Below are positions 3,048-50,606 of a stretch of 64,000 nt of DNA, piece by piece; the first letter of the stretch is position 1, and every line of letters begins with the position of its first letter. The stretch is from Pseudomonadota bacterium. GTDB lineage: Bacteria > Pseudomonadota > Gammaproteobacteria > Burkholderiales > Burkholderiaceae_C. Under the pieces are notes generated by a model. It did no database searches. It was not told where the DNA came from and was given only the letters and a program-made list of their open reading frames with translations. The stretch is from assembly GCA_021819435.1 (NCBI GenBank), contig JAKARB010000003.1:62001-126000 (forward strand), given 5' to 3'. The position numbers and the translations under genes were made by a program.

Positions 3048-3152
3048 GCACGACATGCGCAAACCGTCTTTGCTCCACACCAAAGCTTCGTTCACCGCGC
3101 AGGCCGTTGCACCTATCTTTGTTTCCGCTGCATTCAACAAAAAAGGACCCTC

Positions 3153-4145
3153 ATGAATTCCCGGATCGCCTTTGCTCGCCGCCATTTGCTGGGCACCTTG
3201 GGCCGTGGACTGCTGTCGACCCTGATGGCCGCGAGCCTGTTGGGCGCCGGCCTGGCACAAGCGCAGGCACAGAACGCGGTGCTGCGCGTGGGCTACCAGA
3301 AGTACGGCACGCTCACCATCCTCAAGGGCAAGGGTGACCTGGAAAAGCGCCTGGCACCGCTGGGTGTCAGCATCAAGTGGGTGGAGTTCCCCGCTGGTCC
3401 GCAACTGCTCGAAGGCTTGAACGTCGGCTCCATCGACTTCGGCACCGTGGGCGAAGCCCCGCCCATCTTCGCGCAAGCCGCTGGGGCCGACCTGGTCTAC
3501 GTGGCCAACCAGCCGCCCGCGCCAACGGCAGAGGCCATCGTCGTGCCCAAGGGCTCCACCATCACATCGGTGGCTCAGCTCAAGGGCAAGAAGGTGGTGC
3601 TCAACAAGGGATCGAACGTGCACTACCTGCTGGTCAAGGCGCTCGAGAAAGCCGGCCTGCAATACAGCGACATCCAGGTGGTCTTCCTGCCTCCGGCCGA
3701 TGCACGCGCGGCTTTCGAGCGTGGCAGCGTGGACGCCTGGGCCATCTGGGACCCCTTCCTCGCGGCCGCTGAAAAACAGATCGGTGCACGCGTGATCGCC
3801 GATGGCAAGGGCATCGTCGCCAACCACCAGTTCTACCTGGCCTCGCGCAAGTACGCGAACCAGAACCCCGGGGTGATCAAGGCCATCGTGTCCGAGCTGC
3901 AGAAGCTCGACGTGTGGGCCGCCAACGATGTCAAGGCGGCAACCGCCGTCCTCGCACCAGAAATTGGCCTGGGTCCGGAGATCACCGAGCGGTCCCTGCG
4001 CCGCATGGCTTATGGCATCCAGCCCATCACCGCCCAGGTCGCGGCAGAGCAGCAGAAGGTGGCCGACACCTTCGCTGGCTTGAAGCTCATCCCCAAGCCC
4101 ATCCGCATCACCGACGCCTTGCCCGAAGGCGTGGCCACGAAGTGA
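3153..4145 (+). CDS. ssuA: aliphatic sulfonate ABC transporter substrate-binding protein
   Basis: LRVGYQKYGTLTILKGKGDLEKRL...WVEFPAGPQLLEGLNVGSIDFG; followed by ssuD, ssuC, ssuB. Confidence 0.92.
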   Translation: MNSRIAFARRHLLGTLGRGLLSTLMAASLLGAGLAQAQAQNAVLRVGYQKYGTLTILKGKGDLEKRLAPLGVSIKWVEFPAGPQLLEGLNVGSIDFGTVGEAPPIFAQAAGADLVYVANQPPAPTAEAIVVPKGSTITSVAQLKGKKVVLNKGSNVHYLLVKALEKAGLQYSDIQVVFLPPADARAAFERGSVDAWAIWDPFLAAAEKQIGARVIADGKGIVANHQFYLASRKYANQNPGVIKAIVSELQKLDVWAANDVKAATAVLAPEIGLGPEITERSLRRMAYGIQPITAQVAAEQQKVADTFAGLKLIPKPIRITDALPEGVATK

Positions 4146-4174: not shown

Positions 4175-5365
4175 ATGCGCATTTTCTGGTTCATCCCGAC
4201 CCACGGTGACGCCCGCTACCTCGGCACCAGCCACGGCGGCCGGGACGCCACCTTCGCCTACTTCAAGCAGGTGGCCATCGCGGCTGACAGCCTGGGTTAC
4301 GAGGGGGTGCTGCTGCCCACCGGGCGTTCTTGTGAGGACTCATGGATCCTGGCGGCCAGCCTGATCGACGTGACTCGCCAGTTGAAGTTCCTGGTGGCGC
4401 TGCGCCCGGGCTTGATCCAGCCTGCGCAAACCGCGCGCATGGCCGCCACGCTGGACCGCATCTCGGGCGGCCGCTTGCTGGTGAACCTGGTGACTGGCGG
4501 CGACCCAGAGGAACTCGAAGGCGATGGCCTCTTCCTGAGCCACCAGGACCGCTACGTGCTGTCGCGCGAGTTCCTGACCATCTGGCGTGAGGTGCTGTCG
4601 CGCAGCCACGCGGGCGAAGGCTTCGATTTCGACGGCCAGCACCTCCAGGTCAAGGGCGCCAAGTTGCTGTACCCGCCGGTCAACCGGCCATACCCGCCGA
4701 TCTTTTTCGGCGGCTCGTCGGAAGAGGCGCACGAACTGGCGGCCGAGCAACTCGACACCTACCTCACCTGGGGCGAACCACCGGCCGCCGTGGCGGCCAA
4801 GGTGGCCGACATCACCCGGCGCGCCGAGAAGCATGGCCGCAAGCTGAGCTTCGGGATCCGGCTGCATGTCATCGTGCGCGAAACGGAAGACGCCGCGTGG
4901 CAGGCCGCGGGCGAGCTGCTCTCGCACCTCGACGAAAGCACCGTCAAGGCCGCGCAGCAGAAGTTCTCACAGATGGATTCCGTCGGGCAACGCCGCATGG
5001 CCGAGCTGAACAAGGGCCGATTCAACCGCCACAACGTGCGCGAAGGACTTGAGGTGTATCCGAACCTGTGGGCAGGCGTGGGCCTGGTTCGCGGTGGTGC
5101 GGGCACCGCCCTGGTGGGCAATCCCCAGCAGGTGGCCAACCTGATCAAGGAGTACGCGGCGCTGGGCCTGGACTACTTCATCCTGTCCGGCTACCCCCAC
5201 CTCGAAGAAGCCCACCGCTTCGCCGAGCTCGTCTTCCCGCTGCTGCCGCGCAGCGTTCAGGATCGCTTCACCCAGCAAGCTCCACAGGGCCCACGTGGCG
5301 AGATCGTGGCGAATGCCTACGTGCCCCCAGACACGCAGCCCGTGCCGCAAACATCGGCCAGTTGA
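4175..5365 (+). CDS. ssuD: FMNH2-dependent alkanesulfonate monooxygenase
   Basis: [18 protein letters not shown]...; luciferase-like; [22 protein letters not shown]; operon context. Confidence 0.95.
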
Positions 5366-8154: not shown

Positions 8155-8434
8155 GGGCGCAGTCTCCGCTCAGTCATGGTTGGGAAGGAAAGACCGCCAT
8201 CAATCTACGACCAGCCCAGCCTTGCCACAACCATCCGTCACGCATGCTCAAGCTCGGTTTCCGCATGTGCAAGGCGGGCACTGGCAAGAGGGTCATGCAA
8301 GGCCACACAGGGTCACGCGGCACATATGCCGCCATCGCATGAGCGCATGCACAAGGGTCGCTTCACAGGCCGGAACTGCCTTCCATAGACTCCGCGCTCG
8401 ATTTCGTCCCGCATTCAGCCTGCCTTCATCCAGG

Positions 8435-16110: not shown

Positions 16111-16231
16111 GGGAAGCAGGCTCCAGGAATGGTTGAACAAGGTAGCGGTTCGGCTGAACCGCCCTTGCTGTCGAAGTGAGACCGACTCTAGCGACCTGCA
16201 AGAGCGCCCGTTTGGATGAATGCGCAGATGC

Positions 16232-17689
16232 TCATGCGTTATGCGAACCAACGCTCAGGCCACCACGGATGGGTCGATCCCAGCGCTGTCTGCCCGTGAG
16301 GAAATGAACCCAACCCCAGACACCGCCGGCCAGGCGCAACAACTGAAACGTCCAGGGCTCGATCACGGCCGTCAACAGGGTGCCTCCCAGCGACAAACTC
16401 CCGACGTCGCCACGCCAGCGGCGATGGCCGCGCCACAGCCACGCCTGACAGGCGAGGTCGAACAGGGCTTTCACGCCCACACAGGACGCGACCACAAACA
16501 CCAGCGACATCCGGCCGCGTGCCAGCGACCACAGCAGCATCCACCAACCGCCGACCCCGATCAGGGGCTGCACGGTGTCAAGCGCCTTGATGGGCAGCAT
16601 CCGCAGGCCAACCGGGCCATATCGCCGCACACCCACCATGTCCCGATACCACCACTGTGTTTGCAGGAAGCCGGCGTACCAGCGGCGCCGCTGGCGCAGG
16701 AAGGCCATGGCCGGGGCAGGTGCTTCGGTGCGGGCCTGGGCGTCGCCCAGCACGGCGGTGCGCCAGCCGAGGCGACGCTGTGCGCCGACCCGCCGCAAGC
16801 GGTGGATGACTTCGTAATCCTCTACCAGGCAGTCCGGGTCGAAGCCGCCGACGTCGCGCAAGGGTCCGCACCGGAAGGCCGCGAAAGCCCCTGAGATCAG
16901 CAACAGGCCGCCCAGGTTCATCCATGCGCGCCGGGCCATGAAGTTGCGCAGGTACTCGTGCTGCTGGAACCACTGAAGGAGCCGGCCTCTCGCGGTCGGA
17001 ACGCAGACGGGCGTGAGCACGCCTGTGGCAGCCACCAGCCGGTCGTCTTGCGCGAAGGCGCTGACGACGGCCTGCAAGGCGCCCGGCTCCAGCCAGGTGT
17101 CGGCGTCGACCGTCAGCACGATGTCGGCCTCCACGGTGGCGATGGCCGCGTTCAGCGCCGAAGCCTTGCCGCCATGCGACAGGCGCATCCAGCGCAGGTC
17201 CGCCGCGTTGGGCGATGCCTCACCGACGACCTCACCGCTGCCGCTCGGCACGAGCCCGAACCGATGGCGCAACAAACATTCGGTGGCATCTGTCGACCCA
17301 TCGTCCGCGATGACGATCAGATCGGGCTTGCGTGACTGGCCCCGCAAACCCGCGATGGTCGCCGGCAGCACCGTTGCTTCGTTGTGCGCGGCGACGATGA
17401 CCGCCAGACGCAACTCGCTCCGCTGCGCAATGAGTTCAGCGGGGCGGCGCTGCCTTCCTCGCACCAGGTCGCGGTTGAGCCAGCAGACCAGGCCCTGCGT
17501 CAAGCCGTCATGCAACAGGAACCAGGCCGCCAGCCATGCCCAGCCACCTGGTGGGTCGAACGCGATGACCAAGAGCAAGCCGATCCAACCCATGATCGCC
17601 AGCCCGTGCCAAAACAGGCTTGCCCATGGCACCACGAGTGCGTGGTGGCGCGGAGCGTGCAACCGGCGCGCTTCGGCCAGCGCCTGCAT
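16232..17689 (-). CDS. membrane glycosyltransferase family 2
   Basis: [61 protein letters not shown] (QxxRW-like); TM segments. Start trimmed to 17689 to clear the upstream gene. Confidence 0.85.
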
Positions 17690-27057: not shown

Positions 27058-27726
27058 TCAGCCCACCGAGACCTTCAAGCCCTCGGCGATGGCCCAAGGC
27101 CCCAGGGCGACGCTGGCGGCCAGCAAGGCGGCCAACAGGTAGAGGTGAGCAGCCACGCCCAAGCCACTGGCTTGGGCCGACACCGCGCCGGCCCCGAAGA
27201 TCAGCACCGGCGTGGTCAGCGGCAGCACCAGCAGGTTGACCAGCACACCGCCGCCCTTGAGGCCCAGCGTCAGCGCAGCACCGATGGCACCCAGCAGGCT
27301 TAGCACGGGCGTGCCCAGCAACAAGGTAGCCAGCAGCAACCAGATGGCGTCGGCCGGCAGGTAGAACTGCAAGGCCAGCAAGGGGGACAAAGCCACCAGC
27401 GGCAGGCCGCTGACCAGCCAGTGCGCCAGCACCTTGGCCAACACGATCAGCCCCAGCGGCTCGGGCGAAAGCAACAGTTGCTCCAGCGAGCCGTCGGCAT
27501 GGTCGTGCGCGAACAAGCGCCCGAGCGACAAGGTCGACGACAACAGCGCTGCCACCCAGAGCACCCCGGGAGCCAACTGCCGCAAGATCTCGCGCTCAGG
27601 ACTCACGGCCAGCGGAAACAGGCTGCACACCATCAGGAAGAAGAACAGCGTGGTCCACACATCGGAGCGTCGCCTGAAAGCCAGTTGCAAATCCCGATGG
27701 AGCACGGTCAAGAAGACCTGCGCCAT
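27058..27726 (-). CDS. ccmB: heme exporter permease CcmB
   Basis: DVWTTLFFFLMVCSLFPLAVSPE; SLGRLFAHDHADGSLEQLLLSPEPL. Confidence 0.95.
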   Translation of the reverse strand: MAQVFLTVLHRDLQLAFRRRSDVWTTLFFFLMVCSLFPLAVSPEREILRQLAPGVLWVAALLSSTLSLGRLFAHDHADGSLEQLLLSPEPLGLIVLAKVLAHWLVSGLPLVALSPLLALQFYLPADAIWLLLATLLLGTPVLSLLGAIGAALTLGLKGGGVLVNLLVLPLTTPVLIFGAGAVSAQASGLGVAAHLYLLAALLAASVALGPWAIAEGLKVSVG

Positions 27727-28361
27727 CAGCACGCCCTCCACATGGAAGCTCGCCCCAGGCGCAAGGTATGGTGAGCACGCGCCGCCAGCCTGCGTGGCTG
27801 GTGGGTGGTGTAGATCAGCAGCGAACCACTTTGCAGGCGATCCTCCAGCGTCTTCGCAAGCACATCCGACGCATCGGCATCGAGCGCGGTGAAGGGCTCG
27901 TCAAGCACCAGCACACCTGGCTGACGAGTGAGCGCGAGGCGCGCCAAAGACACCCTCCGGCGCTGCCCTTGCGACAAAGAACGCGCCGGCATGCTGGCGA
28001 GCGAAGCCAGGCCGAATCGGCCCAAGGCTCGCAGCACATCGTCGTCCGTGACCCGAAAGCCCGCCACCATGGCATTGACACGCAGGTTCTCGTGCGCACT
28101 CAAGTCGTCCTTGAGCGCCGGAGCGTGGCCGATGTAGCTGAGGTGGTGACCGCGCCGATTCACGCGCCCCGCGAGCGGCTCGGCCAAGCCGCACAGCACG
28201 CGCAGCAGCGTCGTCTTGCCCGCGCCATTGGGTCCAGCCACATACAAGGCCTCGCCGGCACCAACCTTCAGATCAACGCCCGCGAACAAGCGCCGCCCTG
28301 ACGGCCCGGCCGCCAGTCCAATCGCTTCCAAGCTTGCATGGGGATCAGGTCTTGCCAACAT
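27726..28361 (-). CDS. ccmA: heme exporter ATPase CcmA
   Basis: GPNGAGKTTLLRVLCGLAEP; LSQGQRRRVSLARLAL; LDEPFTALD; start at ATG 28361. Confidence 0.95.
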   Translation of the reverse strand: MLARPDPHASLEAIGLAAGPSGRRLFAGVDLKVGAGEALYVAGPNGAGKTTLLRVLCGLAEPLAGRVNRRGHHLSYIGHAPALKDDLSAHENLRVNAMVAGFRVTDDDVLRALGRFGLASLASMPARSLSQGQRRRVSLARLALTRQPGVLVLDEPFTALDADASDVLAKTLEDRLQSGSLLIYTTHQPRRLAARAHHTLRLGRASMWRAC

Positions 28362-28465
28362 GGGAGCGGACTTTATCGACCGCACCACTCGGATCCAACG
28401 AAGGAAATGGCGCTTCCTTATGCCTTATCCAATGGACATGCACACATGCGAAACCAACCCCACGA

Positions 28466-40391: not shown

Positions 40392-40407
40392 TGGCACAAA
40401 GTCTGCA
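40392..40407 (+). promoter_or_regulatory. sigma-54 -24/-12 promoter upstream of porin
   Basis: TGGCACAAAGTCTGCA vs consensus TGGCACGnnnnTTGCW, correct GG-N10-GC spacing; 52 nt upstream of the proposed GTG start. Confidence 0.7.
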
Positions 40408-47140: not shown

Positions 47141-47265
47141 AGCCCCGGCCTGCGGATCCACCCAGAGCGTGCAAAAACCGCATATGCATCCACACATTGA
47201 TTCGTTCTCCGCATGAAGGCCGGCTCCTAGCATTTGCTTACCAAATTCATCAACGCATTGCTTCC

Positions 47266-48282
47266 ATGACCCAAAAGACTTTCACCCGCCGCGCCGTTCA
47301 CGCCCTGGCCCTCGCCGCCGCCCTCACCGTGGGCGGGCTGGCCCACGCCAAGGACATCTCCCTGCTGAACGTTTCCTATGACCCGACGCGCGAGCTTTAC
47401 CAGGAATACAACGCCGCCTTCGCCAAGTACTGGAAAGCCAAGACCGGCGACAACGTCACCGTCAAGGCCTCTCACGGCGGCTCGGGCAAGCAAGCCCGCT
47501 CGGTGATCGATGGCCTGGAAGCCGACGTCGTGACCCTCGCGCTGGCCTATGACATCGACGCCATCGCCGAGAAGGGCCTGCTCAAGACCGATTGGCAGAA
47601 GTCTTTCAAGGGCAACAGCTCGCCCTACACCTCCACCATCGTCTTCCTGGTTCGCAAGGGCAACCCCAAGCAGATCAAGGACTGGTCTGACCTGATCAAG
47701 CCTGGTGTCGCCGTCATCACCCCGAACCCCAAGACCTCGGGCGGCGCCCGCTGGAACTACCTGGCCGCCTGGGCCTATGAACTGAAGAAGACCGGCTCCG
47801 AAGAGAAGGCCAAGGAGTTCGTGAGCCGCATCTACCAGAACGTGCCCGTGCTCGACTCCGGCGCCCGCGGCTCCACCGTGACCTTCGCCGAACGCGGCCA
47901 AGGCGACGTGCTGCTGGCCTGGGAAAACGAAGCCCACCTCTCGCTCAAGGAATTCGGTGCCGACAAGTTCGACATCGTCTACCCCAAGTTCTCGATTTAC
48001 GCCGAGCCGCCCGTGGCCATCGTCGACAAGGTGGTCGACAAGCGTGGCACCCGCGATGTGGCCAAGGCTTACATCGAATACCTCTACAGCGCCGAAGGCC
48101 AGGACATCGCCGGCAAGAACTTCTACCGCCCAACCGACCCGAAGGCCGCCGCCAAGTACGCCAAGCAGTTCCCGAAGATCGAGCTCGCCAAGATCGATGA
48201 CGTCTTCGGCGGCTGGACCAAGGCCCAGAAAACACACTTCGCCGATGGCGGTGTGTTCGACCAGATCTACACCAAGAAGTGA
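47266..48282 (+). CDS. sulfate ABC transporter substrate-binding protein
   Basis: [61 protein letters not shown]; start at ATG 47266. Confidence 0.95.
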
Positions 48283-48493: not shown

Positions 48494-49723
48494 TCAAGCC
48501 GGATAAGGCAGCGACTCCGGCTCGTTCAATTCATCAGGCGGAAGCAAGGCACCTTCATCGGCATGACCCAGCAACCCATGCCGCTTGAGCTGCGTGCGCA
48601 GCACGTTGCGCGTGATGCCCAGCAGACGCGCCGCGCGCACCTGGTTGCGACCAGCCTGGTCAAAGGCCACGTGCACAAGGGTCGATTCGACCGTGTCGAA
48701 CAAGGCCTCGCCGCCTGCATGCAACAGCTCGGCCAGCACATCCTGCAAGCGCTGCAACACATCTCCCGATGGCTCGGCGGGCCGCAAGCCCGGATGAGCT
48801 TTCGAGAAAGCCGGCGCAGCCAGATCGCCGGCCGATCCGGGCGAAGGGCCCAGCCCCCCCAGACCACCGACCACCAGCCGCGTCGCATCGGACGACTGAC
48901 TCGCCCCCACGAGCGGCACCAGCCGGATGTCTTCGGGCTCGATGCAATGTTCGCGGCAGACGATCAGCGCGTAGTGAATGACGTTTTCGAGTTCGCGGAT
49001 GTTGCCTGGCCAGGTATAGCTCAACAAGGCTTCCTGGGCGCGCTCGCTCACACGCACATCCGGCAGGTTCAGGCGCTGCCGGTACACCGAGATGAAGTGC
49101 CGCACCAAGGGCAGGATGTCGGCGGGCCGCTCGCGCAGCGGCGGCAGGCGCACAGCGGCCACGCTCAACCTGTAAAACAGGTCGGCGCGGAAGTGCTGGG
49201 CCTCCACGGCGCGACGCAAGTCGATGTTGGTGGCCGCCACCAGGCGCACGTCCAGCGGGATGCCTCTGCGTGAACCCAGCCGCACCACCTGGCGCTCCTG
49301 CAGCACTCGCAGCAACTTGACCTGCAAGCCCAGCGGCAGGTCGCCGATTTCATCGAGGAAGAGCGTGCCGCCATTCGCAGCCTCGAACCAGCCCGCACGC
49401 GCCTGCGAGGCCCCGGTGAAGGCGCCGCTCTCATGGCCAAACAACTCCGCGTCGATCAGGCTTTCGCTGAAGGCACCGCAATTCACGGCCACGAAAGGTC
49501 CGCTGCGGCCACTTATCGCGTGGATGTGTCGCGCGATCAGTTCCTTGCCCGTGCCGGTCTCGCCAGTGACCAACACGGTCGCCTCGCTTCGAGCGATGCG
49601 CTCGACATCCAGCAACAGCCTCAGCGAGGCCGGGTCATGAAAGACCAACGCCTTTGCCCGGATGGACAAAGGCGCCGTCGGCGAGTCTGGCAGGGTCAGC
49701 AGGCGCTCAGGCATCTGATTCAA
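48494..49723 (-). CDS. sigma-54-dependent activator without N-terminal receiver domain (SfnR-like)
   Basis: GETGTGKELIARHIH, ESGAFTGA, GGTLFLDEIGDLPL, Fis-type HTH QVRAARLLGITRNVLRTQLKRHGL. Confidence 0.93.
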   Translation of the reverse strand: MNQMPERLLTLPDSPTAPLSIRAKALVFHDPASLRLLLDVERIARSEATVLVTGETGTGKELIARHIHAISGRSGPFVAVNCGAFSESLIDAELFGHESGAFTGASQARAGWFEAANGGTLFLDEIGDLPLGLQVKLLRVLQERQVVRLGSRRGIPLDVRLVAATNIDLRRAVEAQHFRADLFYRLSVAAVRLPPLRERPADILPLVRHFISVYRQRLNLPDVRVSERAQEALLSYTWPGNIRELENVIHYALIVCREHCIEPEDIRLVPLVGASQSSDATRLVVGGLGGLGPSPGSAGDLAAPAFSKAHPGLRPAEPSGDVLQRLQDVLAELLHAGGEALFDTVESTLVHVAFDQAGRNQVRAARLLGITRNVLRTQLKRHGLLGHADEGALLPPDELNEPESLPYPA

Positions 49724-50417: not shown

Positions 50418-50533
50418 GTGCTTGCCTCGGATGGAAGGTCAGATCGGGACAGCAGAAGGATGTCTGCCAGACTCGCTACCTTAGAGAGGCCGCCCGCTTC
50501 CGCCAACGATCCGATTCGCATGGCCTTGCGTGC

Positions 50534-50564
50534 TTTGCGCATGTGGAAGTGGCACATGCGCAAA
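50534..50564. promoter_or_regulatory. perfect inverted repeat TTTGCGCATGTG-N7-CACATGCGCAAA in the divergent XRE-cupin / hydrolase region
   Basis: Arms 50534-50545 and 50553-50564, read directly. Confidence 0.85.
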
Positions 50565-50606
50565 CGTCGCTTCACGCGCTGCACGGCGATGGCTAAGGTG
50601 GCGAAC

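Follow-up and report, generated by a model that had tools for sequence, protein, structure and literature searches.

Four promoters in one stretch of bacterial DNA carry a similar box upstream of the -35 hexamer, and the genes behind them include genes of sulfate and sulfonate uptake. The question raised by this locus is whether the box is a genuine regulatory site and, if so, which protein would read it. The stretch (the window) comprises 64,000 nucleotides from a Pseudomonadota bacterium of the Burkholderiaceae_C. A first, sequence-only reading had described four boxes, each with a distance of 37 nt from the box to the -35 and a promoter with a 17-nt spacer (N17), and all of them were found where it had placed them. 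The four features, read from the letters, are:

3054..3119, forward strand: ssuA operator and promoter
8202..8267, reverse strand: ssuA2 operator and promoter
47168..47233, forward strand: sbp operator and promoter
50478..50543, reverse strand: XRE-cupin operator and promoter

At ssuA, the distal box CATGCGCAAACCG (3054-3066) is followed by TTCGTT (3087-3092), a -35 of TTCACC (3091-3096), N17 and a -10 of TATCTT (3114-3119); ssuA itself occupies 3153-4145 and ssuD begins at 4175, both above the NCBIfam cut-offs. The reverse-strand ssuA2 gene (8154-7180), whose product scores above the SsuA family cut-off of NCBIfam, is preceded by the distal box CATGCGGAAACCG (8267-8255), a second CATGCG (8246-8241), TGGTT (8233-8229) and a promoter made up of TTGTGG, N17 and TAGATT (8207-8202), and its site has one mismatch to the box-plus-spacing pattern. 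The sbp gene (47266-48282) has a distal box CGTGCAAAAACCG with two mismatches (47168-47180), GCATATGCA at 47180-47188, TTCGTT at 47201-47206, a -35 of TTCTCC at 47205 and a -10 of TAGCAT at 47228-47233. On the reverse strand, the XRE regulator gene (50417-49707), which is followed directly by the gene for a sigma-54 activator (49723-48494), lies behind the distal box CATGCGCAAAGCA (50543-50531), a second CATGCGAAT (50522-50514), TCGTT (50509-50505), TTGGCG, N17 and TAAGGT (50483-50478).

With the orthologous promoters of relatives set beside these four, the noted box is best read as the distal part of a larger, putative LysR-type operator of about 40 bp. A stretch of this length, from about -72 to -33 (with starts assumed from the -10), is present at all four promoters and at their orthologues, and consists of CATGCGCAAA near -72, either GCATAWGCAA near -60 or a second CATGCGAAA at -51, and TTCGTTC, which abuts the -35. 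The most conserved element is TTCGTT, which had gone unremarked at first; its first base precedes the called -35 by 4 nt, and the -10 (TANNNT) begins at a fixed +27 from it. Counted from TTCGTT, the distal CATGCGCAAA has its first base 33 nt upstream in the majority of XRE-cupin orthologues; the two close orthologues of ssuA share this distance, as do several of sbp (L102, L108, L113 and L114). Most sbp orthologues have no good distal box but carry GCATAWGCAA 21 nt before TTCGTT; in this group the distal box is variable and the central element is the conserved part. In XRE-cupin promoters, CATGCGAAA is repeated 21 bp after its first copy. Conservation at fixed offsets is seen, in all, in orthologues of three different promoters.

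Taken by itself, the 13-mer of the distal box is non-specific and was dropped as a definition of the site: with at most one mismatch it occurs at 45 places in the 4.41-Mb genome of this bacterium, mostly without a promoter layout, as against 11 for the pattern read backwards, and among 30 near-copies checked only ssuA and ssuA2 have the promoter geometry (TT at +37, TANNNT at +60). The combined pattern CATGCRNAAA-N24-TCGTT has two exact matches in the 4.41 Mb, which are ssuA and XRE-cupin, and four with one mismatch, two of which are ssuA2 and sbp; with up to two mismatches there are 41 places versus 12 in the reversed control. This pattern was shaped partly on the sites themselves, and therefore an independent test was made with a model trained, on sequence only, from the aligned promoters of sbp, XRE-cupin and ssuA orthologues in relatives, leaving out the genome under study. 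The three best matches of this model in that genome are sbp (E 3.9e-9, the top match), XRE-cupin (E 1.5e-5) and ssuA (E 4.9e-4). When the 127,858 positions of the window are scored with it in ungapped matrix form, the top five are, in this order, sbp, XRE-cupin, ssuA, ccmA and ssuA2 (ranks 1-5; 52.8, 36.0, 31.1, 24.5 and 20.4 bits), after which there is a large fall to 9.0, 3.0 and then at most 1.1 bits. A genome scan for GCATAWG-N14-TTCGTTC with at most two mismatches found no enrichment, with 21 places and 21 in the reversed control; its two best matches are sbp and ccmA. To the earlier worry that the box plus its spacing might be as common in unrelated sequence, the genome pattern scan and the window ranks answer no.

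In 41 genomes of the genus scanned with the relatives' model, the genes downstream of 35 matches, nearly all of them outside the training set, were read; the filters were strict and part of the candidates were scored, such that the size of the regulon is a lower bound. Among these genes are sbp or sbp2, cysT, ssuE, XRE-cupin and an arylsulfotransferase gene, together with four TauD-type dioxygenases, three RBBP9-like hydrolases, three GntR/UTRA regulators, three ccmA, four rhodanese-like proteins (Pfam confirms one, and the other three were assigned by eye) and some single genes whose link is unclear; the GntR, PEP-CTERM and sterol desaturase members have no plain sulfur link. Order-wide matches include some before sbp, ssuA-like and TauD-like genes; in other families of the order they precede sbp and, in two of these families, sulfite-reductase-like genes (judged by sequence only). 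The matched set has the makeup of a sulfur-assimilation regulon, as far as gene identities predict, and the proposal that a common regulatory site defines a sulfur-limitation regulon draws support from these comparative data, both from the conservation and from the genes behind the matches.

We consider it probable, at roughly 0.8, that a LysR-type activator of the CysB family has its operator here, with the box as the distal part, and LTTR1 is the most likely such activator. A tetramer of LTTR1 would bind the distal and proximal halves and so occupy about -72 to -33, and during sulfur shortage it would activate the sigma-70 polymerase where the -35 hexamer of the promoter is poor, thereby turning on sulfate and sulfonate uptake as well as a local regulator pair, the XRE-cupin protein and the sigma-54 activator. 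LTTR1 presumably binds the operator directly, and activation seems likelier than repression because the regulator would be of the CysB family and the site lies upstream of the -35. LTTR1 may also act on its own gene, its inducer is probably acetylserine-like, and the signal may pass on through the XRE-cupin protein and the sigma-54 activator to a -24/-12-like sequence at 40392.

Two CysB-family LTTRs are encoded in this genome, on different contigs. LTTR1 (G000:C4:54771-55718, reverse strand) comes directly after cysA of sbp2-cysTWA, 6.3 kb to the left of the window, and LTTR2 lies at G000:C6:9136-10074. Both are above the cut-off of 402 of the CysB-family model NF009327, an NCBIfam subfamily model (LTTR1 475.2, LTTR2 437.7), and both are below those of the CysB equivalog NF009326 (cut-off 436; 407.9 and 351.9) and the Cbl equivalog NF009324 (cut-off 491; 384.1 and 311). 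LTTR1 shares 49% identity with CysB and 53% with Cbl, and its recognition helix is Cbl-like. Among the N-acetylserine pocket residues described for CysB (PMC11329422), it retains T100, Q103, T149, E150, W166 and Y197 and differs at 102, 199 and 246.

The alternative that survives best, and which we nevertheless regard as unlikely, is that LTTR2, or both paralogues, binds the site. Paralogues of the CysB family can share sites, and hardly any genome of the genus lacks LTTR2; G007, which has sites and no detected LTTR1, carries it too. Against this stand the 510-bp stretches upstream of the regulator genes in the genus, where the model finds 27 matches for 39 LTTR1 genes (best E 3e-5) and none for 38 LTTR2 genes; since LTTRs usually control their own genes, these counts favour LTTR1. 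Genome G021, with LTTR2, no LTTR1 and no site match, also speaks against LTTR2. About 40-50 nt separate the site from LTTR1 downstream of it in G020, G005, G002 and G008, and sites in front of LTTR1 might instead serve divergent genes. Across genomes the co-occurrence of LTTR1 and site is imperfect, with G007 on one side and G003 and G023 (LTTR1 without a match) on the other, and it is only suggestive of a link. In the genome under study, the model search gave no clear sites in the regions around LTTR1 and LTTR2 (L251, L252), no site in the cysH region and, at sbp2 (L255), a weak site of 6.7 bits with TAGCAT. One further genome, G029, has an LTTR1 with an in-frame TGA (G029:C5:154906-155844), no sbp match and no site match, as if regulon and LTTR1 had decayed together.

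Recognition of the box by the XRE-cupin regulator or the sigma-54 activator is very improbable. One of the sites does precede both genes, and the divergent region there holds a near-palindrome, but the promoters are of the sigma-70 type, their N17 spacer is fixed, and the site sits directly against the -35. Moreover, strong sbp sites occur in at least eight genomes (e.g., G001, G007, G013, G017 and G033) that lack an XRE-cupin orthologue, so this protein cannot be the general binder; the role was rejected for the sigma-54 activator as well. A chance likeness of four promoters chosen by eye, which the many stray copies of the 13-mer might suggest, is hardly credible and is refuted by ranks 1, 2, 3 and 5 under a model from other species, by the fixed-offset conservation and by the sulfur genes behind the matches in relatives.

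Of the systems already described, those of CysB, Cbl and SsuR come closest to this one. CysB activation sites are centred 50-60 bp before the start, and the enteric CysB consensus is very weak (PMC11329422), which makes enteric regulon prediction poor. The Salmonella and E. coli sites (cysP, cysK and cysJIH) resemble the present ones in lying directly upstream of the -35 with a centre at about -50 to -60, in having several half-sites and in serving sulfur genes, with a regulator of the same family as LTTR1 that acts on its own gene, as LTTR1 may do too (PMC11329422); they differ in consensus, which here is a clear CATGCGCAAA / GCATAWGCAA / TTCGTTC. Among E. coli CysB promoters only cysD, which carries TTTCATTCGTTCTC, resembles the site (E 0.1 in 81.5 kb, with the enteric consensus weak); the others gave no match to the relatives' model. 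E. coli Cbl, the regulator of the ssu and tau operons in sulfate starvation, is like LTTR1 in identity (the 53% given above), in a very similar DNA-binding domain and in the types of target, ssu and tauD-like, and unlike it in that LTTR1 falls under the Cbl cut-off (384 vs 491 bits) and that the regulon here adds sulfate uptake. SsuR of Burkholderia cenocepacia, as described, is likewise a second CysB-family LTTR in a betaproteobacterium; it controls ssu, tau and tauD-like genes from DNA that lies just ahead of the -35 or overlaps it. Its recognition motif, reportedly poorly conserved, differs from the clear consensus found here.

The sequence-only reading did not recognise the box as a published CysB, Cbl or SsuR site. 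The hint that it belongs to no known type goes too far, because the position upstream of the -35, the sulfur genes behind it, the presence of a candidate regulator and the site at the regulator's own gene (LTTR1 in relatives, with divergent genes as a possible alternative) fit the CysB/Cbl/SsuR family. The shared site is real, and by most tests the predicted operator is a lineage-specific member of that kind serving sulfur limitation. In full-text searches of open-licence papers, judged by titles and abstract openings, no betaproteobacterial CysB motif of this kind and no CysB-ccm link turned up. Three things are new, as predicted from these comparisons: a clear consensus in three parts for the lineage, LTTR1 as the assigned regulator, and a conserved site in front of ccmA. 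Given a clear consensus and a fixed promoter geometry, one can read the lineage's sulfur-starvation regulon from sequence, and the site points both to a likely regulator, LTTR1, and to unexpected candidate members, namely ccmA, the RBBP9-like hydrolases and a GntR/UTRA regulator. The window holds three further predicted sites:

28370..28430, reverse strand: predicted ccmA operator (relatives' model, E 0.013, rank 4)
50529..50600, forward strand: weaker divergent site toward the RBBP9-like hydrolase gene (rank 6, 9.0 bits)
16217..16247, reverse strand: weak operator-like stretch before groES-groEL (12.1 bits)

The ccmA site, the best extra site of the window and the least expected part of the set, consists of GCATAAGG (28423-28416), TTCGTT (28402-28397) and a -10 of TAAAGT (28375-28370) before the cytochrome c maturation gene ccmA (27726-28361, reverse strand), and three relatives (L231, L235 and L241) have a matching ccmA site. 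The site toward the RBBP9-like gene shares the palindrome TTTGCGCATGTG...CACATGCGCAAA with the XRE-cupin site and has a -10 of TAAGGT at 50594-50599; three relatives (L243, L245 and L247) have sites before such a gene. The stretch before groES-groEL (16113-14123, reverse strand) has no -10 at the usual distance and a -10-like TAGAGT 3 nt further away. We would suggest, tentatively and with more doubt than confidence, that in this lineage a Cbl/SsuR-like paralogue reads a well-defined three-part operator that can be found genome-wide with a profile, and that the starvation regulon extends past sulfur uptake to the cytochrome c maturation operon (ccmA) and possibly to this copy of groES-groEL. 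Cytochrome assembly would then be linked to the supply of sulfur.

Some minor observations concern the same window. The groES-groEL stretch CGCATAACGCATGAGCATCTGCGCATTC, taken as 16217-16254 on the reverse strand, almost matches the corresponding part of the sbp promoter in two relatives (L093 and L094). A weak site at 8320-8391 on the forward strand (3.0 bits, rank 7) points away from ssuA2, toward a DsbD-like gene. At 40392-40407, also on the forward strand, TGGCACAAAGTCTGCA is a GG-N10-GC sequence of the sigma-54 type, on which the sigma-54 activator encoded at 48494-49723 might act. Finally, the inverted repeat GCCATTTCCGCATGAACGCATGCGGAAATGGC at 1631-1664, which closely follows the 52-1623 gene, has the box-like CATGCGGAAA on each strand and looks like a transcript-end hairpin rather than a promoter site.
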